NCBI RefSeq assembly: GCF_030165005.1
Contig: NZ_JASNNW010000011.1
Coordinates: 124,001 to 188,000, forward strand
Reading direction: 5' to 3'
DNA from: Blastococcus capsensis
GTDB taxonomy: Bacteria > Actinomycetota > Actinomycetes > Mycobacteriales > Geodermatophilaceae
DNA length: 64,000 nucleotides
Under the pieces are notes generated by a model. That model ran no database searches, had not been told where the DNA came from, and was given only the letters and a program-made list of their open reading frames with translations. A program made the translations under genes and the position numbers. Positions within the stretch are counted from its first letter, which is position 1. Every line of letters begins with the position of its first letter. Shown one piece after another: positions 957 through 28,863 of this stretch.

Positions 957-1363
957 TCGTCGACACGTCTGCTCTCATCGCGATCCTGCGCGGAGAACCG
1001 GACGCCGATCGCTACATCCAGGCGCTGGCCACCGCAGACGAGGCTCGCACCTCGGCCGCGACCTACCTGGAGACCGCCGTCGTGGTGGACGCCAACCGTG
1101 ACCCGGTGCTCAGCGGCCGCTTCGACGACCTCCTGGCCGCGGTGCCCGTTACCGTCGAACCGGTCACGCGGTCGCAGGCGGACATCGCCCGCCGGGCCTA
1201 CCGCGACTTCGGCAAGGGCAGCGGCCATCCCGCCCGCTTGAACTTCGGTGACTGCTTCACCTATGCGCTGGCCCGCGCCACCGGTGAACCACTGCTCTTC
1301 AAGGGCACCGGCTTCTCGGCGACCGATGTCACCCCGGCCCTCGATCCGGTGGATCCTGCCTGA
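953..1363 (+). CDS. vapC: VapC-type PIN-domain ribonuclease toxin, one acidic residue missing
   Basis: A 136-residue PIN-domain protein. The PIN acidic residues visible are D4 (MIVDTSALI), E40 (TYLETAVV) and D100 ([11 protein letters not shown]). The usual fourth acidic residue lies in a motif of the form LLFKGxDF; here it reads [13 protein letters not shown], with Gly at position 120. Members of the family are Mg2+-dependent endoribonucleases that cut tRNA or rRNA. Loss of the fourth acid may weaken the active site or be compensated by D125. The gene is translationally coupled to the antitoxin upstream by a 4-base overlap. Confidence 0.88.
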
Positions 1364-1495
1364 GCAGGCCGCCGGCGACATCACGGGATGCCGTGTGGCG
1401 GGCGGTCGCCGCCAACGTCGACCTCGCCGTCGCCCAGTTACCGGAGGAACTTCTGATCTGGTACCGAACTGCGCTGGAGCGGTACCATCGCTTCC

Positions 1496-1762
1496 ATGGC
1501 CACCAACCTGCGGTTGAGCGACGCGGCAGCGAAGGCCCTGCGCCAGGCCGCGGCGGCCACTGGGCGGCCGCAGCAGCAACTCATCCGCGAGGCCCTCGAC
1601 CGGTACCTCGGCCTGGAGCCCGGCGAATCGGATCGTGCACGCGCCCGTGCGGCCGGATCGGTCCGACCCGGCACGCCGTTCCGTGACGTGGCGCCCACGG
1701 TGCACCTGCCACCGGGCGCGACCACCCGAGACCTGCTCGAGCCCGACGCCGACCCCCGGTGA
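1496..1762 (+). CDS. Ribbon-helix-helix antitoxin of second TA pair
   Basis: An 88-residue protein beginning MATNLRLSDAAAKALRQAAA. A strand is followed by helices containing TGRPQQQLIREALDRYL, the typical RHH (CopG/MetJ-like) DNA-binding fold. The C-terminal half is charged and proline-rich, suited to binding a toxin. The last four bases (GTGA, 1759-1762) overlap the GTG start of a PIN-domain toxin. It is presumed to autoregulate the pair, as in other VapB-like antitoxins. Confidence 0.8.
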   Translation: MATNLRLSDAAAKALRQAAAATGRPQQQLIREALDRYLGLEPGESDRARARAAGSVRPGTPFRDVAPTVHLPPGATTRDLLEPDADPR

Positions 1763-2160
1763 TCGTCTACCTCGACACCAGCGCCCTGCTCAAGCGGGTC
1801 ATCGTCGAGCCAGAGTCGGCAGCTGTACGGGCACTGCTCAGCCGGTTGTCGGCAGCCGGCGATCTGCTCACCTCCTCGGCGCTCACCTGGATGGAGGTCG
1901 AACGCGCTCTGCGCCGCGCCGACGTTCCCGACCTCGGCCGGCTGACCGAAGCCGCTCTCTCCGGTATCGACGAGTTCCCGCTGCGACCCGTCGTCCTCGA
2001 CCAGGCCAGGACCATCGGCCCGGCCACGCTGCGATCCCTGGACGCCATCCATCTGGCTTCCGCCATCGGCATCCGTGCCACGCAGCTGGTCACCTTCGAC
2101 GAACGGTTGGCGGCCGCGGCCCGCGACGAGGGGATCGACGTGCTGGCGCCTGCGAGCTGA
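1759..2160 (+). CDS. vapC: VapC-type PIN-domain toxin of second TA pair
   Basis: A 133-residue PIN-domain protein with all four acidic residues: D6 (VYLDTSALLK), E46 (LTWMEVERAL), D95 (RSLDAIHLASA) and D114 (LVTFDERL). The spacing is canonical for active VapC ribonucleases. The GTG start overlaps the antitoxin stop by four bases. Its sequence differs strongly from the VapC at 953-1363, so the two modules are not a recent tandem duplication. Confidence 0.88.
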   Translation: MIVYLDTSALLKRVIVEPESAAVRALLSRLSAAGDLLTSSALTWMEVERALRRADVPDLGRLTEAALSGIDEFPLRPVVLDQARTIGPATLRSLDAIHLASAIGIRATQLVTFDERLAAAARDEGIDVLAPAS

Positions 2161-2344
2161 GACGGTGGAGTCGGCAGCCGGACGCACGCCGCCACACTCC
2201 GCTACCGCACAGTGCGCACGTCGGTGACCGGCAACCGGGAACCGGGGCACCGGCCCTCCATCACCCGCTCGCCGGCGCTCAGCCCTTGCCTTCGTCCGTC
2301 ACTGTGATGCGAGAAGGTCGCACGTCGCATCACGACGCTAGGCT

Positions 2345-2578
2345 GTGTCGGTGCGCACCACCATCGACCTCCCCGAGGACATCCACCGGGTGGCAGCCGC
2401 CATCGCCCGCGACTCCAACAGCTCGTTGAGCGACACGGTCACCCGGCTGCTCCGCGCCGCCCTGGCTGCACCCGGACCGGTAAGGGTCAGCACGAGCCGC
2501 CGCACCGGCTTGCAGGTCGCCTCGCTCGGCCGAGTGGTCACCAGCGACGAGGTGCGCTCGCTGGACGACGACGGATGA
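2345..2578 (+). CDS. vapB: Ribbon-helix-helix antitoxin of third TA pair
   Basis: A 77-residue protein beginning MSVRTTIDLPEDIHRVAAAI. The RTTIDLPEDIH strand and following helices (DSNSSLSDTVTRLLRAAL) are the signature of RHH antitoxins. Two GTG codons (2345 and 2351) could start it; the first is given. The stop overlaps the downstream toxin (ATGA, 2575-2578). The 184 bases upstream (2161-2344) hold no gene and presumably contain the promoter/operator of this pair. Confidence 0.83.
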   Translation: MSVRTTIDLPEDIHRVAAAIARDSNSSLSDTVTRLLRAALAAPGPVRVSTSRRTGLQVASLGRVVTSDEVRSLDDDG

Positions 2579-2976
2579 CGGTCCTGCTCGACGCCAATGC
2601 ACTGATCGCGCTCACCGTCACCGACCACGTCCACCACGACCTCACGGAGGCGTGGTTCACGCAGCGCTCGGAACCCTTCGCGACCTGCCCCGTCACCCAA
2701 GGGGCACTCGTCCGATTCCTCCTCCGCGGCGGCGCGACCGCGCGGCAGGCCCTGGATCTGGTGCGCGCCCTCCGAGCGGCGGATGGACACGAGTTCTGGC
2801 CCGACGAACTCGGCTACGACGTCATCGACATGCGCGGGGTCGTCGGGCACAGGCAGGTGACCGACGCCTACCTGGCCGGGCTGACCCGCTCGCGAAACGG
2901 TCGACTGGCCACCTTCGACCGCGCCCTCGCAGCCCTCCACGACGACGTGGCGATGCTCCTCGACGGTGGCGACTGA
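2575..2976 (+). CDS. vapC: VapC-type PIN-domain toxin of third TA pair
   Basis: A 133-residue PIN protein with D6 (VLLDANALIAL) and the motifs FATCPVTQGALVR, HEFWPDEL, GHRQVTDAYLAGL and LATFDRALAAL. These blocks are shared with the large mycobacterial VapC subgroup, in which the second acidic position is often replaced near TQGxLVR. The acidic residues in VTDAY and TFDRA supply the rest of the metal site. It is coupled to the antitoxin by ATGA and probably acts as a tRNA/rRNA-cutting toxin. Confidence 0.88.
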   Translation: MTVLLDANALIALTVTDHVHHDLTEAWFTQRSEPFATCPVTQGALVRFLLRGGATARQALDLVRALRAADGHEFWPDELGYDVIDMRGVVGHRQVTDAYLAGLTRSRNGRLATFDRALAALHDDVAMLLDGGD

Positions 2977-3039
2977 TGGTCCACCGGCCTGCGGCCGTCG
3001 GTCGCAGCAGAGTCGATGTCGGCCGGTCGCGTTCTGCCG

Positions 3040-3134
3040 GTGACGACCACCATCGACGGCCCCGGCCGCATCGTCGTCCCGAAGGCTCTGGCACGCACGC
3101 AGCCCACGGCGTCGAGATCATCGGCCCGAGCTGA
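3040..3134 (+). pseudogene. Remnant of an AbrB/SpoVT-type antitoxin gene
   Basis: In one frame from GTG 3040 the translation gives VTTTIDGPGRIVVPKAL, the unmistakable N-terminus of an AbrB-like (MazE/VapB) swapped-hairpin antitoxin. After about 17 codons the homology stops. In another frame the DNA then gives HGVEIIGPS and a TGA at 3132-3134, which looks like the second hairpin of the same domain (…VEI…). The frame change and missing middle imply a small deletion or frameshift. No toxin gene follows; the next gene is on the other strand. Confidence 0.6.
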
Positions 3135-3162
3135 ACCGACGACGCCCGGAAGCGCCGCCGGG

Positions 3163-4215
3163 TCAGCGGGTGATCGTCGAGGCGTGCTCGTTCTCGCGGG
3201 CCGCCAGCCGCTCGCGCTGCGGGACGACGACGTACTTCGGGTCCTTCGTGCTGGCGATGCCGGCCTCGAAGACGCCGAACCGGGTGAGCAGCGACCCGGC
3301 AGCCAGCAACGTCCCCGACGCGACGGCCCCCAGCCGCGTCCGCCCGGCGATCGCGGTCAGCCCGGCGCCTGCGGCGGTGCACGTCTTGGCCGCCTGCATC
3401 AGCTTCCCGGGCCGGCCCTCGTGGTAGGGCTCGCTCTCGATGCCGTGGTCGTTCTCCACCTTGTGCATCGCGGCCAGCTCGACCACGGCACCGGTGATCG
3501 CCATCTTCCGCGCCGGCCCGGCCTCGGCCACCGGCGTGAACATCATCGTGATGCCACCACCTGCGGCCATCGCCGAGCCGCCGAACACGAACGGCAGCTG
3601 CGTGTGCGCCGCGTGCCACGACGGCACCGCGGTGTTGGCCAGCAGCACCCCGGTGTAGGTGGCCAGCGGCCCACCGAACAGCGCCGCCACCACCCCGCCG
3701 AAGCGCTTCAGCCGCGGGAACCAGCCCAGCAGCTCCACCGCCGCCGTCGCACCGGCCGCCGCGCTGAACGGTGCCAGGATGTAGGTGCCCACCGACAGCG
3801 GCGAGGTCACCTTGAGCACCCGCAGCATGTGCAGGAACCGCTCCGGCCGCCCCAGGTCGTGGATCAGGAACACCACCGACAGGATCGAGCCGCCACCGGC
3901 GGTCAGCCGGCCCACCCTCGTCAGCGCCGGCCGGTCGGTCACGTCGGCCAGCGCTGCCAGGATCGCCGACGAGCCGGCCGCCCCACCCAGGAACAGGTAC
4001 AGCGGCACGTCCGGGCTCTTCCACACCGGCGTCTTCACGATCTGCCGGCCGTAGTACGACGTGAACTCGACGTCCTCGACCATCGCGACCTCGCCGCGAC
4101 CCCGCCATCCGCCGCCCCGACGGCGCTTCTTGCCGCCGCCGCCGCGGCGCTGCGTCGCCGGGCCGGAGTCGGCCTGACGCCACCCCGAACCCGGACTGGT
4201 GATCCCGCCGGTCAT
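3163..4215 (-). CDS. nrfD: NrfD/PsrC-family membrane subunit of formate dehydrogenase
   Basis: A 350-residue membrane protein forming the quinone-reducing anchor of the formate dehydrogenase complex. After an Arg/Lys-rich cytoplasmic N-terminus it shows the NrfD pattern: PLYLFLGGAAGSSAILAALA, IHDLGRPERFLHMLRV, SPLSVGTYIL and further hydrophobic helices. LGRP…R is the conserved family motif. The ATG at 4215 is preceded by GGAGG four bases away and lies one base after the stop of the iron-sulfur subunit gene, so the two are translationally linked. A second possible start is the ATG at 4083. It takes the place of the cytochrome b subunit used by the enterobacterial enzyme. Confidence 0.88.
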   Translation of the reverse strand: MTGGITSPGSGWRQADSGPATQRRGGGGKKRRRGGGWRGRGEVAMVEDVEFTSYYGRQIVKTPVWKSPDVPLYLFLGGAAGSSAILAALADVTDRPALTRVGRLTAGGGSILSVVFLIHDLGRPERFLHMLRVLKVTSPLSVGTYILAPFSAAAGATAAVELLGWFPRLKRFGGVVAALFGGPLATYTGVLLANTAVPSWHAAHTQLPFVFGGSAMAAGGGITMMFTPVAEAGPARKMAITGAVVELAAMHKVENDHGIESEPYHEGRPGKLMQAAKTCTAAGAGLTAIAGRTRLGAVASGTLLAAGSLLTRFGVFEAGIASTKDPKYVVVPQRERLAARENEHASTITR

Positions 4216-4216
4216 G

Positions 4217-5278
4217 TCACCTCCGCCGCGAGCCGGCGATCGCCGCGACGGCGACCCCGACCATCATCGCCGCGGCCTTGCCGGCCGCCTTCCACATCGC
4301 CGGCAGGTCCCGCGTCGTGACGATCGGGTCCGGCGGCAGGCCGTAGACCTCCGGCTCGTCGAGCAGCAGGAAGAACGCCCCGTCTCCCCCGACGCCGTCG
4401 TCCTCGTCCCGCCCGTACAGCCGCGCGGTCTCCACGCCCTGCGCCTTGAGCGTCACCAGCCGCGCGTCCGCCCGCTCCTGCAGCTCGTCCAGGTCGCCGA
4501 ACTGGATCGACTGCGTCGGGCACGCCGTGGCGCACGCCGGCTGCAACCCGTCGGTCAGCCGGTCGTAGCACATCGTGCACTTGAAGACCCGGCCGTCGTC
4601 CTTGCGCTGGTCGATGACGCCGTAGGGGCACGCCGCCACGCAGTAGCCGCAGCCGTTGCAGATGTCGTCCTGCACGACCACGGTGCCGTACTCGGTGCGG
4701 AACAGCGCACCGGTCGGGCAGACGTCCAGGCAGCCCGCGTGCGTGCAGTGCTTGCAGACGTCGGAGCTCATCAGCCAGCGGATCTGCTTGTCCGCCCCGG
4801 TCTGCCCGGTCTGCGGGTCGAACTCGCTGAGCGCCTCGGCGTTGAGCACGCTCTGCTGGGCGTTCGCCAGGCTCACGGAGTCCCCGGCTCCCGCCGGCGA
4901 CGGGCCGCTGCCCTGCCGGTCGTCACCCGGCCGCCCGAACGTCGGCATCGGCAGGTCGACAGCGCGGCTCTGCTCGATGAACGCGACGTGCCGCCACGAG
5001 TTCGCGCCCAGCTGGCCGGTGTTGTCGTAGGACATCCCCGACATCCCGATGACGTCCCGCACGCCGTGCGAGTCGTCCATCGGGAGGGTGTTCCACTCCT
5101 TGCAGGCCACCTCGCAGGCCTTGCAGCCGATGCACACCGAGGTGTCGGTGAAGAAGCCGACCCGCTTGGGGTGGTCCGCCTCGTACCCGGACTGCCCGGT
5201 GACGTCGGGGACCGGGCCGTAGAGCCGGTTGCCGGGGTCGTTGCCGGTGAAGGCCGCGCTCGCCGAACTGATCGTCAT
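4217..5278 (-). CDS. Formate dehydrogenase iron-sulfur (beta) subunit, 4x[4Fe-4S]
   Basis: A 353-residue electron-transfer subunit. Four cysteine clusters are visible: CIGCKACEVACKEWN near residue 49, CKHCTHAGCLDVCPTGA near 175, CNGCGYCVAACPYGV near 208, and CTMCYDRLTDGLQPACATAC near 235. This matches the FdnH/FdoH/HybA type, which passes electrons from the molybdenum subunit to the membrane subunit. A short hydrophobic stretch near the C-terminus (MMVGVAVAAIAG) may be a membrane anchor. Compared with E. coli FdnH there is an extra linker of about 60 residues between the first and second clusters. It sits between the alpha-subunit gene and nrfD in the same operon. Confidence 0.92.
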   Translation of the reverse strand: MTISSASAAFTGNDPGNRLYGPVPDVTGQSGYEADHPKRVGFFTDTSVCIGCKACEVACKEWNTLPMDDSHGVRDVIGMSGMSYDNTGQLGANSWRHVAFIEQSRAVDLPMPTFGRPGDDRQGSGPSPAGAGDSVSLANAQQSVLNAEALSEFDPQTGQTGADKQIRWLMSSDVCKHCTHAGCLDVCPTGALFRTEYGTVVVQDDICNGCGYCVAACPYGVIDQRKDDGRVFKCTMCYDRLTDGLQPACATACPTQSIQFGDLDELQERADARLVTLKAQGVETARLYGRDEDDGVGGDGAFFLLLDEPEVYGLPPDPIVTTRDLPAMWKAAGKAAAMMVGVAVAAIAGSRRR

Positions 5279-5306
5279 GCCGCGCCCTTCGCTGGGTTCA
5301 CGTCGC

Positions 5307-5341
5307 CGTCCTCCCTCACCGGGAGGCGTCCTCCCTCACCG
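5307..5341 (-). repeat. Tandem direct repeat in the fdh intercistronic gap
   Basis: Between the alpha- and beta-subunit genes (5279-5420) a 15-base unit, CGGTGAGGGAGGACG on the minus strand, occurs twice (5327-5341 and 5307-5321) with a 20-base period. Each copy contains a GGGAGG Shine-Dalgarno-like core, but both lie more than 20 bases from the beta-subunit ATG. A perfect 8-base inverted repeat, GATCAGGG/CCCTGATC (about 5368-5384), lies closer to the alpha-subunit stop and could form a processing or attenuation hairpin. Confidence 0.5.
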
Positions 5342-5420
5342 CACACCGTGAGCGAGGACGCACCACGATCAGGGACCCTGATCCCAGCGGGGCTCACGAG
5401 CTTGTCTGCGTCGGCGGTCA

Positions 5421-8400
5421 TCACAGCGTCGAGCCCTCCCCCGCGTCGGCGGCGACCGGGTCGCGGCCGTTGAGGCCCACCCGCCCGGACGCCACCCCGG
5501 CCCGCCGCCGGTATTCCTCCACGAAGTCGATGAGCTCCGGCCCCCGCGGGCGCCGCCCCGGGACGATGTCGGCGGTGCTGACCTTGTCCTCCTGGATGTG
5601 CGTGTTCGGGTCCAGCGAGATGCCCAGCAGGTCGTTGGCGGAGTCTCCGGTGGAGATGCCGCTGTAGGACCAGTGGTAGGGCATGCCGATCTGGTGCACC
5701 ACCTGCCCGTCGCGCAGCCTGATCGGCCGCACCCGCTCGGTCACCAGCACCTTCGCCTCGATCGCCGTGCGGGCGCTGACCAGCGTGGCGTAGTCCCCGT
5801 GGGTCAGCCCGCGCAGCTTCGCGAGCTCTGGGCTCACCTCGACGAAGAACTCCGGCTGGAGCTCGGCCAGGTAGGGCAGCGTGCGGCTCATCCCGCCGGC
5901 GGTGTGGTGCTCGGTCAGCCGGTAGGTGGTCACCTGGAACGGGAAGACCTCGCTGCGCGAGGGGTTCTCCCGGTTCCACGGGCCGGGGATGCGCTCGACC
6001 GTCGGGTTCGCCTGCACCTTGTACAGGGCGTTCTCGACCACCGACTCCACCGGCTCGTAGTGCGTCGGAAGCGGGCCGTCGACCACACCCGCCGGCGCGT
6101 ACAGCCACGCCTTGCCGTCGCCCTGCATGACGAACGCGTCGGTGCCGGCCAGCGCGTCCTGCGCCCTGGCGCCGTCGGGCGGCACGTAGTCCGGCCGCTT
6201 GTTCTTCTCGAAGTCGGGGACGTCCGCCCCGGTCCACTCGCCGGCGGCCTCGTCCCAGTACACGTACTTCTTGCGCTCGCTCCACGGCTTCCCGTCGGGG
6301 TCGGCCGAGGCGCGGTTGTAGAGCATCCGGCGGTTCAGCGGCCAGGCCCAGCCCCACTCCGAGGCCACGACGCCCTGCTCCGTGGCGGGCTTGCGCCGGG
6401 CGGCCTGGTTGACCTCGTCGGCGTAGACGCCGCAGTAGATCCAGCAGCCACCGGTGGTCGAGCCGTCGTCCTTCATCTGCATGTAGGTCGACAGCGCCCG
6501 GCCGTCGGGGCCGGTGCCGTTGATCTCCCGCAGCACCGCATCGGCGCTCGGGTCCTGGGTCTCGCCGTGGGTCGGGTAGTCCCAGGTGAGATCCAGCAGC
6601 GGACGGTCGCGGGGGTCGTCGGAGCCCGCCAGCCGCTCCCGCAGGATCCGGCCGAGGTGGTAGAAGAACCACAGGTCGCTGCGGGCGTCGTTCGGCGGCT
6701 CGACCGCCTTGTCCCGCCACTGCAGCATCCGCTGGGTCTGGGTGAAGGTGCCTTCCTTCTCCACGTGCGTAGCCGCCGGCATGAAGAAGATTTCGGTGGC
6801 GATGGTCTCCGGGGCGAGCTCGCCGGTCTCGATCTCCGGCGACTCCTTCCAGAAGGTCGCCGACTCGATCATCTGCAGGTCCCGGACGACCAGCCAGTCG
6901 AGGTTGGCCAGGCCGAACCGGTTCATCCGGCCGTTGGGGTGCCCGACCGTCGGGTTCTCGCCGACCAGGAAGTAGCCGGAAACCTTCCCCTCGATCATGT
7001 CGGCGATCGTCCGGTAGGAGCTGTGGTCGCCGTTGATCTTCGGCAGGTAGTCGAAGGCGAAGTCGTTCTCCGCCGTCGCCGAGTCGCCCCACCAGGCCTT
7101 GAGCAGGCTCACCATGTACGAGCGCTTGTTGCCCCAGAACCCGGCCTTGCCGGCGGCGTCGGCCACGTACTCCTCGAGCGTGGAGTGCTGCAGCGCGTGC
7201 GGCATCGGGAGGTAGCCCGGGAGGATGTTGAACAGCGTCGGGATGTCGGTGGACCCCTGGATGCTGGCGTGCCCGCGCAGCGCCATGATCCCGCCGCCGG
7301 GACGACCGATGTTGCCCAGCAGCGTCTGCAGGATCGAGCAGGTGCGGATGTACTGGGCGCCGACGCTGTGCTGCGTCCAGCCGACCGAGTACACCCACGC
7401 CGTCGTCCGCTCGCGGTTGCTGTTCGACGTCACCCAGTCGGCGACCTGCGCGAACACCTCGGGCTCGATGCCGCAGACCTCGGCCACCATCTCCGGCGTG
7501 TACCGGGCGTAGTGCCGCTTGAGGATCTGGAACACCGTGCGCGGGTCCTGCAGGGTGTCATCGCGCTGGGGCTTGGCCGGGATCGGCGGCCCGCCGCTGC
7601 CGGAGGCCTGGGCCCGGTCGGCGTGCTTGACGCTCGGGTCCTCACCGGTGCGATCCAGCTCGGCCGCCTCGGCGGGGTCGTCCGACCCCGAGTGACGCGG
7701 CTCCTCCGGTTGGTACTGCCAGGACGTGTCGTCGTAGGTCCGGCTCTCCGGGTCGAAGCCGGAGAACATGCCGTCGAGGTCCTCGGAGTCGACGAAGTCC
7801 TCGCTCACCAGCGCCGCGGCGTTGGTGTAGGCGACCACGTACTCCTTGAAGTACAGGTCGTTGCTCAGCACGTGGTTGATGAGCCCGCCGAGGAACGCGA
7901 TGTCGGTGCCCATGCGCAGCGGCACGTGCAGGTCGGCGATCGCGCTGGTGCGGGTGAAGCGCGGATCGATGTGGATGATCTTGGCGCCGCGCGCCTTGGC
8001 CTCACCGACCCACTGGAAGCCCACCGGGTGGCACTCGGCCATGTTCGAACCCTCGATGACGATGCAGTCGGAGTTCGCGAGGTCTTCCAGGTAGTTCGTG
8101 GCACCGCCACGACCGAACGAGGCACCCAGACCGGGCACCGTCGCGGAGTGCTATATGCGCGCCTGGTTCTCGATCTGGATCGCGCCCAGGGCGCTGTAGA
8201 GCTTCTTCATGAGGTAGTTCTCCTCGTTGTCGAGGGTCGCCCCTCCGAGGCTCGCTATCCCCATGGTCCGGCGGAGCCGCCGGCCCTCGTCGTCGGTGTC
8301 CTGCCAGCCCTTGCGCCGGGCCTCCAGCACGCGGTCGGCGATCATCTCCATCGCCGTGTCGAGCTCGAGGTCCTCCCACTCCGTCCCGTACGGACGGCGG

Positions 8401-8723
8401 TACTTGACCGTGGTGACCCGCGTCGGGCTGGTGACCAGCTGCTTGCTCGCCGAGCCCTTCGGGCAGAGCCGGCCGCGGCTGATCGGCGAGTCCGGGTCGC
8501 CCTCGATCTGGACGACCTTCTCGTCCTTCACGTAGACGTTCTGCGCGCAGCCGACGGCGCAGAACGGGCAGACGCTCTTCACCACGCGGTCGGCGGTCGC
8601 GGTGCGCGACACCACCGCCTCGGTCGCCATGCTGCGCGCGGCCTTGCCGCGACCGAACGGGTCCGAACCGGTGAGCTGCCGGTACACCGGCCAGCTCTCG
8701 AGCCAGGTCTTCACGGCGGTCAC
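5421..8723 (-). CDS. fdh: Formate dehydrogenase alpha subunit, selenocysteine encoded by TAG
   Basis: The molybdopterin/tungstopterin catalytic subunit that oxidises formate to CO2. Reading from GTG 8723 to TGA 5421 gives 1100 residues with one in-frame TAG at 8153-8151 (residue 191). Upstream of the TAG the protein shows C52, C55, C59 and C87 (SVCPFCAVGC, GRLCPKGS), the [4Fe-4S] site of FdnG-type enzymes, and the sequence ends NQARI. Downstream it resumes HSATVPGLGASFGRGGATN. In the family the residue between ARI/RV and HxxTV is selenocysteine or cysteine. The frame is continuous on both sides, so this is recoding rather than two genes. A SECIS-like hairpin follows. UAG-Sec is known in Geodermatophilaceae. 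No Tat signal is visible. A GTG at 8714 is a possible alternative start. Confidence 0.9.
8121..8139 (-). promoter_or_regulatory. SECIS-like hairpin downstream of the TAG codon
   Basis: On the minus strand GGTGCCC pairs with GGGTGCC (7 pairs, two of them G·U) around the loop GGTCT. Counting the T of TAG as base 1, T17, G23 and T24 occupy the same positions as the functionally required U17, G23 and U24 of the E. coli fdhF SECIS, and the loop GGUCU is the same. SelB binds such a hairpin to deliver Sec-tRNA. This is the structural reason to read the TAG at 8151-8153 as selenocysteine. Confidence 0.8.
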
Positions 8724-8867
8724 TCTGCCATCCGGCTCGCGCGGTGGCGCGTCAGCGGGTCTTCCCAGTCGATCGTGTCCGTCCGACGGGGGACGCGGAC
8801 GTCGGAGCGACGCGCAAGGCCGTCCCCTGCTCCGGAAGGGGCGCGCCTGGACATAGGCTTCGGCGCG

Positions 8868-9518
8868 GTGTCCACGAATCCGCAGCAGGCGACCGCGCGG
8901 CTGCTGTTCGTCTGCACCGGCAACGTCTGCCGCTCTGCAGCAGCCGAACGACTCCTGTCCGCCTGGACGGCCGACAGCAATGAGCGTGTGGAGGTGCGCA
9001 GTGCCGGCACCCAGGCCCGTCCAGGTCGGCCGATGCATCCACGCACCGAACGCGCGTTGGCGCGACACGGCGTCGAGGCCGGCGGCTTCACCTCCCGGCG
9101 CCTGTCCGACGCCGACGTCGACTGGGCCGACCTCGTGCTGACGATGACCGGCGAGCATCGTGACGAGGTGGCGGGGATCAGTCCCCGTGGCCTGCAGAAG
9201 GTCTTCACCGTCATGGAGGCCGCTGCGCTCGGGCAGACGCTCGGCCCCGACTGGTCCCGCAACCACGCCTCCCCCGCTGGAGCTGCGCTCGCCCAGACCC
9301 TTCGGGACGCCCGCGCGCGTTTCGCACGGGCCCGCGGAACGGAGTTCGACGTGGCCGACCCCATCGAGGGCTCCTCCCGGGTGCATGCGGAGGCCGTCGA
9401 CCAGATCGCCGCAGCGCTCGAGATCGTCGTCCCGCTGCTGGTGGGATCGGGCGCCCCCGGCGACGACACGATCCGCATGCCCCGGCTGCCACCGGTCCCG
9501 CGGCCGTTCCCGCGGTAG
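8868..9518 (+). CDS. Low-molecular-weight protein tyrosine phosphatase (Wzb-like), copy 1
   Basis: A 216-residue protein with the LMW-PTP P-loop LLFVCTGNVCRSAAAE (C-x5-R-S) near the N-terminus, followed by DLVLTMTGEHRDEV and VADPIEGSS, where the DP motif supplies the general acid. Such phosphatases remove phosphate from the tyrosine-rich tail of BY-kinases that control polysaccharide chain length. It starts the polysaccharide locus and is paralogous to the phosphatase at 28183-28863, including the C-terminal tail rich in LPPVP. The GTG at 8868 is chosen because homology begins just after it; the ribosome-binding site is weak. Confidence 0.85.
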   Translation: MSTNPQQATARLLFVCTGNVCRSAAAERLLSAWTADSNERVEVRSAGTQARPGRPMHPRTERALARHGVEAGGFTSRRLSDADVDWADLVLTMTGEHRDEVAGISPRGLQKVFTVMEAAALGQTLGPDWSRNHASPAGAALAQTLRDARARFARARGTEFDVADPIEGSSRVHAEAVDQIAAALEIVVPLLVGSGAPGDDTIRMPRLPPVPRPFPR

Positions 9519-9573
9519 CCGGGCCGGCGGGTGCCGCGTCCGACAGCGTTCGCCCAGCAGGCGGTCTGTGGGA

Positions 9574-9640
9574 CACATCGTCCCGGGGACGATGTGCGCT
9601 GCGGACCAGTTCTCGGGCGAGGAACTGGTCCTGCGCGCAC
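9574..9640. terminator. Two overlapping hairpins between convergent genes
   Basis: CACATCGTCCC (9574-9584) pairs with GGGACGATGTG (9586-9596). GGACCAGTTC (9603-9612) pairs with GAACTGGTCC (9622-9631) and can extend outward through GTGCGC (9594-9599) and GCGCAC. The two structures share bases 9594-9596 and so exclude each other at full length. Both lie between the converging phosphatase and LCP genes, consistent with bidirectional termination. The rest of 9519-9766 contains no gene. Confidence 0.65.
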
Positions 9641-9766
9641 ACTGCTCGGCCGCCGGAACAGCTGCCGCGCGATGCACGCCACCGGGCCTGACCAGTCGGC
9701 CGCTCGGGGACATGCAGCCCACCCGTCCGCGCTGCTCGTACAAGGCGGACGTCGAGGGCCCCGGTA

Positions 9767-10846
9767 TCAGTTGGGGACGGCCTGGAGCGTGTCGACCGCG
9801 AACTCGGCCGTGTGGTCGCCGAGCGTGTCGCTCCGCAGGTGGGTCCACATCTGCTCGGCGCGCACCGGGTCCAGGTAGACGACGCTCTGGCTGCCCTCGC
9901 GGCCCGTTCCGGTGACCGGTGCGGTGAGGAACGTGACGGCGTCGGGCCGCAGCGACCGCAGGTCGTAGGCCACCGAGAGCAACTCGGAGTTGGACAGCCC
10001 CTCGTCGACGGCGACGGTGTCGGTGAGTGCGACCAGGAACTCGTCGAGGGCGCCGACGTCGCTGAGGACGTTCTTCTGGGCCAGGCCGCTGTACACCGAA
10101 CGCAGGTACTGCTGCTGGCGCTTGACGCGGTCGAAGTCCCCGCCGGGCAGGCCGTAACGCTGCCGCACGTAGTAGAGCGCCTCGCGGCCGTCGAGGTGGT
10201 TCACCCCGGCCTGGTAGGTGTACGGCCCGTTCGACGTCGTCTGGGCGACGTGGACCTCGACGCCGCCGAGGGCATCGGTCATCTCGACGAACCCGGCGAA
10301 GTCCACGGCCGCGTAGTGGTCGATGCGCGTGCCGGTCAACTGCTCGACGGTCTGGACGAGCAGGGTCGGACCTCCGTAGGCGTAGGCGGCGTTCAGCTTG
10401 GCCATCCCGACGCCGGGGATGGACACCCAGCTGTCCCGCGGCAGGGAGATCACCTGCGCCCGCTGCCGGTCACCCTCGAACCGGACGACCATCATGACGT
10501 CGGAACGACCGTCGGGGGTCTCGCCCGCCGGCACGTCCTCGGTGGTGTCCGAGCCCACGACCAGGAACGTCAGCGGCGTGGTCGTCGCCGGCCCGCTCGG
10601 AGCCGGCGGTCGCTGAGCCTCGTCCAACCCGGCGAAGACACCGTCGAGGCGGTCCAGGTTGCCCGCGTACCGGTGGGTCATCCACCAGGCACCGCCGGCG
10701 ACCAGGAGCAGGACGGCCACCAGTCCCAGACCCACCACGGCCAGGATCCGGCGACGACGGCCTGCGCGGCGAGGTGGTTCGTCGACGTGCTCGTCGATCG
10801 ACGCGCCCCACTCGTCCAGGTCTTCCACGGCTCGGTGCCTCGACAC
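9767..10846 (-). CDS. LytR-CpsA-Psr (LCP) family cell-wall glycopolymer ligase
   Basis: A 359-residue membrane-anchored protein. The cytoplasmic N-terminus (EPPRRAGRRRR) is followed by one transmembrane helix (ILAVVGLGLVAVLLLVAGGA) and an extracellular LCP domain: LTFLVVGSD, RSDVMMVVRFE, VISLPRDSWVSIPG, KLNAAYAYGG, DRVKRQQQYLRSV. These are the conserved Arg/Asp motifs that bind polyprenyl-phosphate-linked substrates. LCP enzymes transfer finished polymers from undecaprenyl carriers onto peptidoglycan, which fits its position in a polysaccharide locus. GTG 10846 is preceded by GAGGAG. It diverges from the flippase gene, with 230 gene-free bases between them that probably hold both promoters. 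Confidence 0.88.
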   Translation of the reverse strand: MSRHRAVEDLDEWGASIDEHVDEPPRRAGRRRRILAVVGLGLVAVLLLVAGGAWWMTHRYAGNLDRLDGVFAGLDEAQRPPAPSGPATTTPLTFLVVGSDTTEDVPAGETPDGRSDVMMVVRFEGDRQRAQVISLPRDSWVSIPGVGMAKLNAAYAYGGPTLLVQTVEQLTGTRIDHYAAVDFAGFVEMTDALGGVEVHVAQTTSNGPYTYQAGVNHLDGREALYYVRQRYGLPGGDFDRVKRQQQYLRSVYSGLAQKNVLSDVGALDEFLVALTDTVAVDEGLSNSELLSVAYDLRSLRPDAVTFLTAPVTGTGREGSQSVVYLDPVRAEQMWTHLRSDTLGDHTAEFAVDTLQAVPN

Positions 10847-27956: not shown

Positions 27957-28182
27957 GGACCCCCCGCTCTCCAGTCCGGCCAACGGCGAGTCCGCTCATG
28001 TGAGACGTCGAACCGGTTGACCGTTGGAACATAACTGTCCGGATGTCGATATCTCGCTATTCGTGTGCACGGTGGGACAGCGTGTTACGAATGTGGCAGG
28101 GGAGTCGCTGTCGCACCGACACGGCGGCCCTTCCTCCGCCGGAGTGCTGGTGTCACCGCTTCGGGCAGGTTGGATCCGGGGC
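27957..28182. promoter_or_regulatory. Divergent intergenic region, probable promoters of the polysaccharide operon
   Basis: About 226 bases separate the first gene of the large minus-strand operon from the plus-strand phosphatase. Bases roughly 28000-28110 are clearly less GC-rich than their surroundings, with runs such as GGAACATAACTGTCC and GATATCTCGCTATTC. That is where promoters for both directions would be expected. I cannot define -10/-35 boxes with certainty. Confidence 0.4.
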
Positions 28183-28863
28183 GTGCGCATCCTCTTCGTC
28201 TGCACCGGGAACATCTGCCGCTCACCCATGGGAGAGCGGCTGACCCGCACCTTCCTGGATGAGGCTCTCGGCGCCTCGGCCGCTGCTGTGGGTACGGCCA
28301 GCGCCGGTACGCACGCGGTCGTCGGCAGCGGCATGGAGCCCTCGTCGGCCCTCGCGCTGTCCGGTCTCGGTGGTGATCCGGCGGGGTTCCAGGCCCAGCA
28401 GCTCACCGGCGAGCTCATCGACGCGGCCGATCTCACGCTGACCATGACCCGGCGCCACCGGCGCGCCGCCCTCAAGCTCGCGCCGCGCGCGATGTTCCGG
28501 ACCTACACCCTGCGCGAGGCCGCGGACCTGCTGACCGGGGCCGACCTCCGCGGCCTGCCCCCGATCGGCTCCCTCGACGAGCGGGCGCGGACCCTGGTGG
28601 CCGCCCTGGGCGCGCAGCGGGCGACCCGGCGCAGCGCGGAACACGACGACGACGTCGCCGATCCGATCGGACAGAGCTCAGCCGTTCACCAGCAGGTCGG
28701 GGAGCAGATCCTCGGCGCGCTCGTCCCGCTGCTGGAGGCGTTGTGCGACGTCCCGGCGGCGCGGAAGTCGCCGGTCACCAGCCTGTCCGACACCTTCGTC
28801 GGGACGGCGAAGAACCTGCCGCCCGTCCCACCGCGCGTCCTGCCGCAGGCCGTCGGGTTCTAG
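28183..28863 (+). CDS. Low-molecular-weight protein tyrosine phosphatase (Wzb-like), copy 2
   Basis: A 226-residue LMW-PTP. The P-loop VRILFVCTGNICRSPMGERL is complete (C-x5-R-S). DLTLTMTRRHRRAAL and DVADPIGQSS (catalytic Asp) follow. The C-terminal tail (AKNLPPVPPRVLPQ) resembles that of the copy at 8868. Lying divergently beside the BY-kinase gene, it is the most likely phosphatase for that kinase. GTG 28183 is chosen because the conserved strand begins there; GTG 28150 is an alternative. Confidence 0.88.
   Translation: MRILFVCTGNICRSPMGERLTRTFLDEALGASAAAVGTASAGTHAVVGSGMEPSSALALSGLGGDPAGFQAQQLTGELIDAADLTLTMTRRHRRAALKLAPRAMFRTYTLREAADLLTGADLRGLPPIGSLDERARTLVAALGAQRATRRSAEHDDDVADPIGQSSAVHQQVGEQILGALVPLLEALCDVPAARKSPVTSLSDTFVGTAKNLPPVPPRVLPQAVGF

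Follow-up and report, generated by a model that had tools for sequence, protein, structure and literature searches.

The UAG codon at 8153-8151, which lies at the catalytic position of a formate dehydrogenase alpha-subunit gene (fdhA), is almost certainly read as selenocysteine (Sec; probability about 0.96) by means of a tRNASec with the anticodon CUA, SelA, SelD, and a SelB protein acting at a downstream hairpin. The window analyzed here, 64,000 nucleotides of DNA in all (G000:C50:124001-188000), comes from a genome of 4.39 Mb in 51 contigs that belongs to Blastococcus, one of the two genera named in the original prediction, and, following NCBI, we take Blastococcus to be a member of the Geodermatophilaceae (hereafter the family). 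The features read directly from the DNA are the position of the codon and its conservation, a set of sel genes with a CUA tRNA, a covarying hairpin, RF1, and the UAG stops of other genes. Charging, delivery, and the presence of Sec in the finished enzyme are inferred from established knowledge of bacterial Sec insertion. Under this mechanism, serine would be loaded on tRNASec(CUA), SelA and the selenophosphate made by SelD would turn the serine into Sec, and SelB, bound to the hairpin that begins eleven bases downstream of the TAG, would bring the Sec-tRNA to this UAG, while RF1 would terminate at UAGs without such a hairpin.

With TAG 8153-8151 translated, a single frame stretches from GTG 8723 to TGA 5421, as the original prediction had stated; it encodes 1100 amino acids, and the minus strand around the codon reads AAC CAG GCG CGC ATA TAG CAC TCC GCG ACG GTG. 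The match to NF041513 (cut-off 1400 bits; Table 1) spans residues 7-1074, with homology on either side of the TAG. The predicted start fared less well: although the frame is indeed open from GTG 8723, the real start is probably GTG 8714 (residue 4), three codons further in, because V-KTW at that point lines up with M-KTW of the paralogue. The residue between NQARI and HSATV, proposed earlier as the catalytic Sec/Cys, is residue 191; in the solved enzymes 1h0h and 1kqf the matching position is printed X, which we take to be Sec. A simple gene caller split the frame into 5421-8138 and 8151-9848, just as had been forecast of gene finders. Among the best 80 similar named loci listed, nearly all of the closest, at about 91% down to 69% identity, carry the names Blastococcus, Geodermatophilus, Modestobacter, Klenkia, Goekera, or Trujillonella, with a few labels that are less precise or 'unverified'; the final eleven, at 67-70%, come from other actinobacteria.

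Table 1. Features of the window, and the island in Geodermatophilus sp. LHW52908 (G058), with coordinates and supporting evidence.
Feature	Position	Strand	Evidence
NrfD-like membrane subunit, likely gamma subunit	3163..4215	-	PF03916, PF14589
Formate dehydrogenase beta-like subunit (4Fe-4S)	4217..5278	-	TIGR01582 180.3 bits, under its 334.7 cut-off; PF13247 over cut-off
fdhA, formate dehydrogenase alpha subunit, single in-frame TAG	5421..8723	-	NF041513 1930.1 bits
SECIS-like hairpin GGUGCCC-GGUCU-GGGUGCC, 7 bp, 5-nt loop at 8132-8128	8121..8139	-	Covariation and folding
UAG at catalytic Sec position, residue 191	8151..8153	-	Frame, alignment to solved enzymes, family conservation
Rare Ile codon ATA directly before UAG	8154..8156	-	ATA in 78/78 distinct TAG genes
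LMW phosphatase gene, ordinary TAG stop, start approximate	8865..9518	+	PF01451 88.7 bits
Second LMW phosphatase gene, ordinary TAG stop, start approximate	28024..28863	+	PF01451 69.4 bits
G058 island, selC(UCA) and UGA-interrupted AhpD-like gene	L145 (G058:C17:1-16000), 1173-5467		

The window genome (G000) contains one strong tRNASec gene, which scores 65.3 bits (RF01852) and carries the anticodon CUA; the next match, which at 47.5 bits barely passes the gathering score of 47, is the tRNASer of the window. This selC(CUA) sits between selD and selA, with selB behind (selD-selC-selA-selB). The original prediction had pointed to selA, selB, and selD, and all three are present, at 415.6, 285.8, and 388.6 bits against curated cut-offs of 267.9, 242.25, and 125. 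It had also pointed to a selC with a CUA anticodon and an 8-base acceptor stem, of which the anticodon was found but not the perfect stem: manual reading gives seven Watson-Crick pairs, with U.C in the eighth position, and Rfam too marks the innermost acceptor positions as non-standard. RF1 is likewise encoded (472.4 bits). The selC(CUA), the three sel genes, and the conservation of the TAG in relatives support the earlier choice of UAG-encoded Sec as the likeliest explanation. The SECIS-like hairpin, the ATA codon, the second fdhA, and the repeated recoding described below go beyond that prediction. ARAGORN calls the UAG-reading tRNASec (L022:1501-1596) tRNAPyl, and automated annotation of Geodermatophilaceae may contain false Pyl tRNAs.

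The hairpin behind the codon is SECIS-like and is a putative SelB site. Across 53 distinct TAG sequences, standard pairs fill 368 of 371 pair cells, compared to a shuffle mean of 330, and 0 of 2000 shuffles reach this value, a covariation signal that comes partly from related sequences. The fourth pair varies between C-G, G-U, G-C, and U-A. The 18 TGA sequences alone have 116 of 126 cells paired, which is attained by 752 of 2000 shuffles, and therefore they give the hairpin no independent support. The loop is GGUCU in 80 of 81 TAG loci (AGUCU in one) and in 13 of 18 out-of-family TGA genes. Local folding of the window's own RNA is only moderately favorable (z = -2.41; 4 of 200 shuffles equally good).

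Reading of this UAG as pyrrolysine by a tRNAPyl would agree with the name that ARAGORN gives the CUA tRNA, but that tRNA has its score as tRNASec and its place between selD and selA, and the site is Sec in homologues. Furthermore, a profile search of the window genome did not find PylS above the cut-off, the best match being 22.7 bits against 178.15; matches at E <= 0.001 also occur in 13 of 14 control genomes, only one of which has a match over the cut-off. Pyrrolysine is thus exceedingly improbable at this position. A point nonsense mutation disabling fdhA, or a sequencing error, would likewise present as a lone in-frame stop in an otherwise open frame. However, all 78 distinct family genes that were read have TAG at this residue, and the reading frame, the neighboring subunit genes, and the hairpin are all kept. 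Because these 78 genes and all the rows spanning the site in the family search have TAG, a chance stop or sequencing error can be dismissed as having next to no likelihood.

It could also be supposed that the UAG terminates translation and that a restart occurs at GTG 8138, from which an open reading frame does exist, or that an ordinary suppressor tRNA inserts a standard amino acid. In either case the break would fall on the catalytic residue, and a second gene family of the same genome (UGSC) also breaks at its Sec site. The restart would moreover begin within the hairpin (8139-8121), and the tRNA with the anticodon that a suppressor would need is tRNASec, which makes both options very unlikely. 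Sec insertion at the UAG is the reading that we retain.

In total, four genes of the window genome have one in-frame TAG each, two of them fdhA and two UGSC-like. The second fdhA, at 72% identity, has the TAG at the same position, and the UGSC-like genes score 139.2 bits (G000:C49) and 102.8 bits (G000:C13) with a cut-off of 125. When 22 UGSC loci (L317-L338), chosen because their rows reported one TAG, were read, the TAG was found at the Sec of the U-G-S-C motif in 22/22, including the G000:C49 gene. The UGSC table also has a number of stop-free rows, including the ones for the UCA genomes G066 and G072 (see below).

Elsewhere UAG stays a stop, and the phenomenon is recoding rather than reassignment. 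The selB gene of the window genome itself ends in TAG. The original prediction named three ordinary genes ended by TAG in the window; the stops at 9518 and 28863 were upheld by PF01451, whereas the one at 459 has no Pfam support. Poor codon bias over a 1306-aa frame had suggested that the TAG at 9518 ends a spurious antisense ORF, an idea rejected when Pfam showed the last 217 codons to be the phosphatase gene. The stops of the 47 window genes called by a simple codon-bias caller comprise 41 TGA and 5 TAG, the latter including the N-terminal piece of fdhA itself, while one gene runs off the end; TGA is therefore the common stop, as claimed.

A search of 112 family genomes at E <= 1e-60 returned FdhA matches in 101, and every row that spans residue 191 reports TAG. 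Direct reading of 101 fdhA loci, some of which repeat a gene, gave 81 TAG, 18 TGA, and 2 TGC, or 78, 18, and 2, respectively, in 98 distinct genes. All TAG genes are in the family and all others are outside it, the 20 out-of-family genes having been hand-picked from an order-wide table, two of them for reporting no stop. tRNASec was detected in 108 of the 112 genomes, and the 110 family selC genes read consist of 102 with CUA (in 101 genomes) and 8 with UCA. The UCA genes belong to seven genomes of three genera (g5, g6, and g7), with an extra copy in G058. The seven genomes with UCA only (G070, G066, G069, G072, G074, G068, and G073; L092-L097 and L099) have no FdhA match at E <= 1e-60. By an ungapped count, the selC genes of six of these share 81-90 of 97 positions with the selC of the window genome, and that of G066, whose sequence is shortened, shares 82 of 94. 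Outside the family, 32 matches were found in 31 of 35 genomes queried, and the selC genes read have UCA in 30/30. The fdhA codon and the selC anticodon thus differ together between the family and the organisms outside it.

Individual genomes in this survey have features of their own. In G079, of the Klenkia group, both fdhA copies (L061 and L062) lack the UAG and the hairpin stretch owing to two different frame-shifting deletions, which point either to decaying genes or to misassembly at a shared repeat. G036, a draft genome of 88% completeness, has two selC genes with different variable arms, both CUA (G036:C25 and G036:C168; L154 and L155), possibly from two strains in one bin. The out-of-family FdhA of G196 and G118 (L186 and L187) have Cys (TGC) at the Sec site and an altered hairpin sequence, and no tRNASec was found in these two genomes at the cut-off used. 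TGA flags that accompany the TAG in the family fdhA rows of G008, G023, G028, G107, and G098 were considered as second Sec sites and rejected, since tblastn puts the extra TGA of L057 and L059 at the C-terminal end (query position 1094) and finds none in L058, L060, and L063. The out-of-family row of G321 reports both TGA and TAG.

The codon that directly precedes the UAG is also conserved. Ile-190 is ATA in every distinct TAG fdhA gene; ATA accounts for 127 of the 3085 Ile codons in these genes, and 78 of the 127 are at Ile-190. Before the TGA of the 18 TGA genes the codon is ATT in 17 and ATC in one. The codon before the TAG in the 22 UGSC genes is GAT (13) or GAC (9), and therefore the ATA rule belongs to fdhA and not to UAG-Sec as such. 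If TAG fdhA arose several times, then ATA was acquired with it on every occasion. As to the cause, our guess is that the P-site tRNA influences termination; a literature search returned no paper on an upstream-codon effect. Avoidance of CTAG, which ATC TAG would create, was rejected as the reason: GAC stands before the TAG in those 9 of 22 UGSC genes, and ATT would avoid CTAG as well.

Phylogenies of the machinery and of its substrate genes give different pictures. A SelA tree of 61 rows unites the CUA-linked sequences in a single clade (support 100/100; one change). The in-family UCA sequences form another clade that does not group with the CUA clade, and eight out-of-family UCA rows are nearer to the latter (support 88/87). 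Therefore, the SelA tree does not show that CUA originated within a UCA locus passed down vertically in the family, and the sel locus may itself have been mobile. An FdhA tree of 68 rows, built by a quick method, does not unite the TAG genes and requires at least five TAG/TGA changes (six with TGC); constraining the TAG genes to one clade is rejected (p-AU 2.85e-135). TAG copies lie beside TGA genes of other families (L073 with L182, L188 with L174), L189-L193 fall inside a TGA clade, and L072 and L074 are placed beside the two TGC genes. Because TAG fdhA is polyphyletic while CUA-linked SelA is one clade, imported UGA fdhA genes have probably been recoded to UAG repeatedly, although parsimony alone would also allow some transfers the other way, and few genes from outside the family were sampled.

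Geodermatophilus sp. LHW52908 (G058) has both anticodons. Along with selC(CUA) in its sel locus, it has TAG in fdhA and in a UGSC gene. A second selC on contig C17, with UCA, scores 81.8 bits and looks foreign: among 73 other selC loci, the twelve that match it best all come from outside the family, and 60 of 97 positions are like those of the window genome's selC when compared without alignment. About 300 bases from selC(UCA) is an AhpD/peroxidase-related gene (TIGR01926, 112.6 bits; cut-off 81.8) with a TGA in the motif RCFY-U, behind which a small hairpin can form. In a search of the AhpD-like family, the G058 row was the only one with a stop, the other rows being open and 32-40% identical. 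G+C content is 62% at bases 1001-6000 of C17 versus 71-74% over the remainder of the first 16 kb, and the island is flanked on both sides by genes judged by eye to be transposase-like. A C17 gene taken for hemQ has one match in each of six genomes searched, with 86-92% identity to the other five. Its presence on the same contig suggests, barring misassembly, that C17 is part of the host chromosome and not a stray contaminant. A search of C17 for selA, selB, selD, and fdhA found none of them. On these grounds G058 is a candidate for a dual Sec code that uses both UAG and UGA. The island contains a second in-frame TGA (P0003, Y-TGA-MAVN) that is doubtful as Sec, having an ATG right after the TGA; P0003 has no Pfam family and no other match in 397 order genomes, and none in a plasmid collection.

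One proposal for the CUA bacteria of the family, to which we give even odds, is that the switch to CUA made them a code island, into which UGA imports are either rewritten (about five times in fdhA, always from ATTTGA to ATATAG) or bring their own decoder, as in LHW52908. If this is true, LHW52908 would read UAG and UGA as Sec with one set of SelA, SelB, and SelD. The comparison makes the family a natural experiment on changing the meaning of a codon, with one CUA clade, repeated apparent correction of imports, an identical upstream codon, and one genome that seems to have two decoders. Two questions thereby become testable, namely why ATA precedes the UAG and whether one SelB serves two tRNASec with different anticodons. 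The gene in the window is itself worth flagging, because a gene caller cuts it in two and its tRNA goes under the name Pyl in ARAGORN. Literature searches on selenocysteine and tRNASec anticodons in Geodermatophilaceae, which covered few subscription journals, listed no paper on the anticodon split, repeated recoding, the ATA codon, or a genome with two anticodons.

UGA-encoded Sec of the E. coli type is the canonical bacterial arrangement in formate dehydrogenases, and the 18 out-of-family TGA genes have it. The enzyme described here shares with the canonical bacterial ones its family, Sec site, downstream hairpin, and dependence on sel genes, but it uses UAG and CUA, and thus competes with RF1 instead of RF2. 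UAG-Sec in the Geodermatophilaceae was reportedly described by Mukai and colleagues in 2016. As the original prediction said for Blastococcus and Geodermatophilus, the system is on record for this family, formate dehydrogenases included: the accessible part of a later article, citing Mukai 2016, lists three Geodermatophilaceae genomes with CUA tRNASec, UAG formate dehydrogenases, and UGSC proteins, and adds an AhpC gene of Blastococcus saxobsidens DD2 to the UAG-Sec set (PMC5330540). The window differs from that system in nothing of kind, having the same family, tRNASec(CUA), UAG formate dehydrogenases, and UGSC-motif selenoproteins; the surveys differ in scale, with three such tRNAs in the genome set of that article, as far as its accessible part goes, compared to 112 family genomes here. 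The article also counts 18 genomes, eight of them bacterial, with two tRNASec genes (PMC5330540). G058 likewise has two, whereas two different Sec anticodons are unmentioned for those genomes in the portion available. In E. coli, a UAG codon with tRNASec(CUA) and a SECIS element makes a selenoprotein, according to the available section of the report (PMC3834832); tRNASec(CUA), SECIS, and SelB act at UAG as they would here, although the E. coli system was designed and is not natural. Ultimately, the core UAG-Sec system is already known and the gene in the window is one more instance of it; the comparative pattern around the known system is the part worth following.
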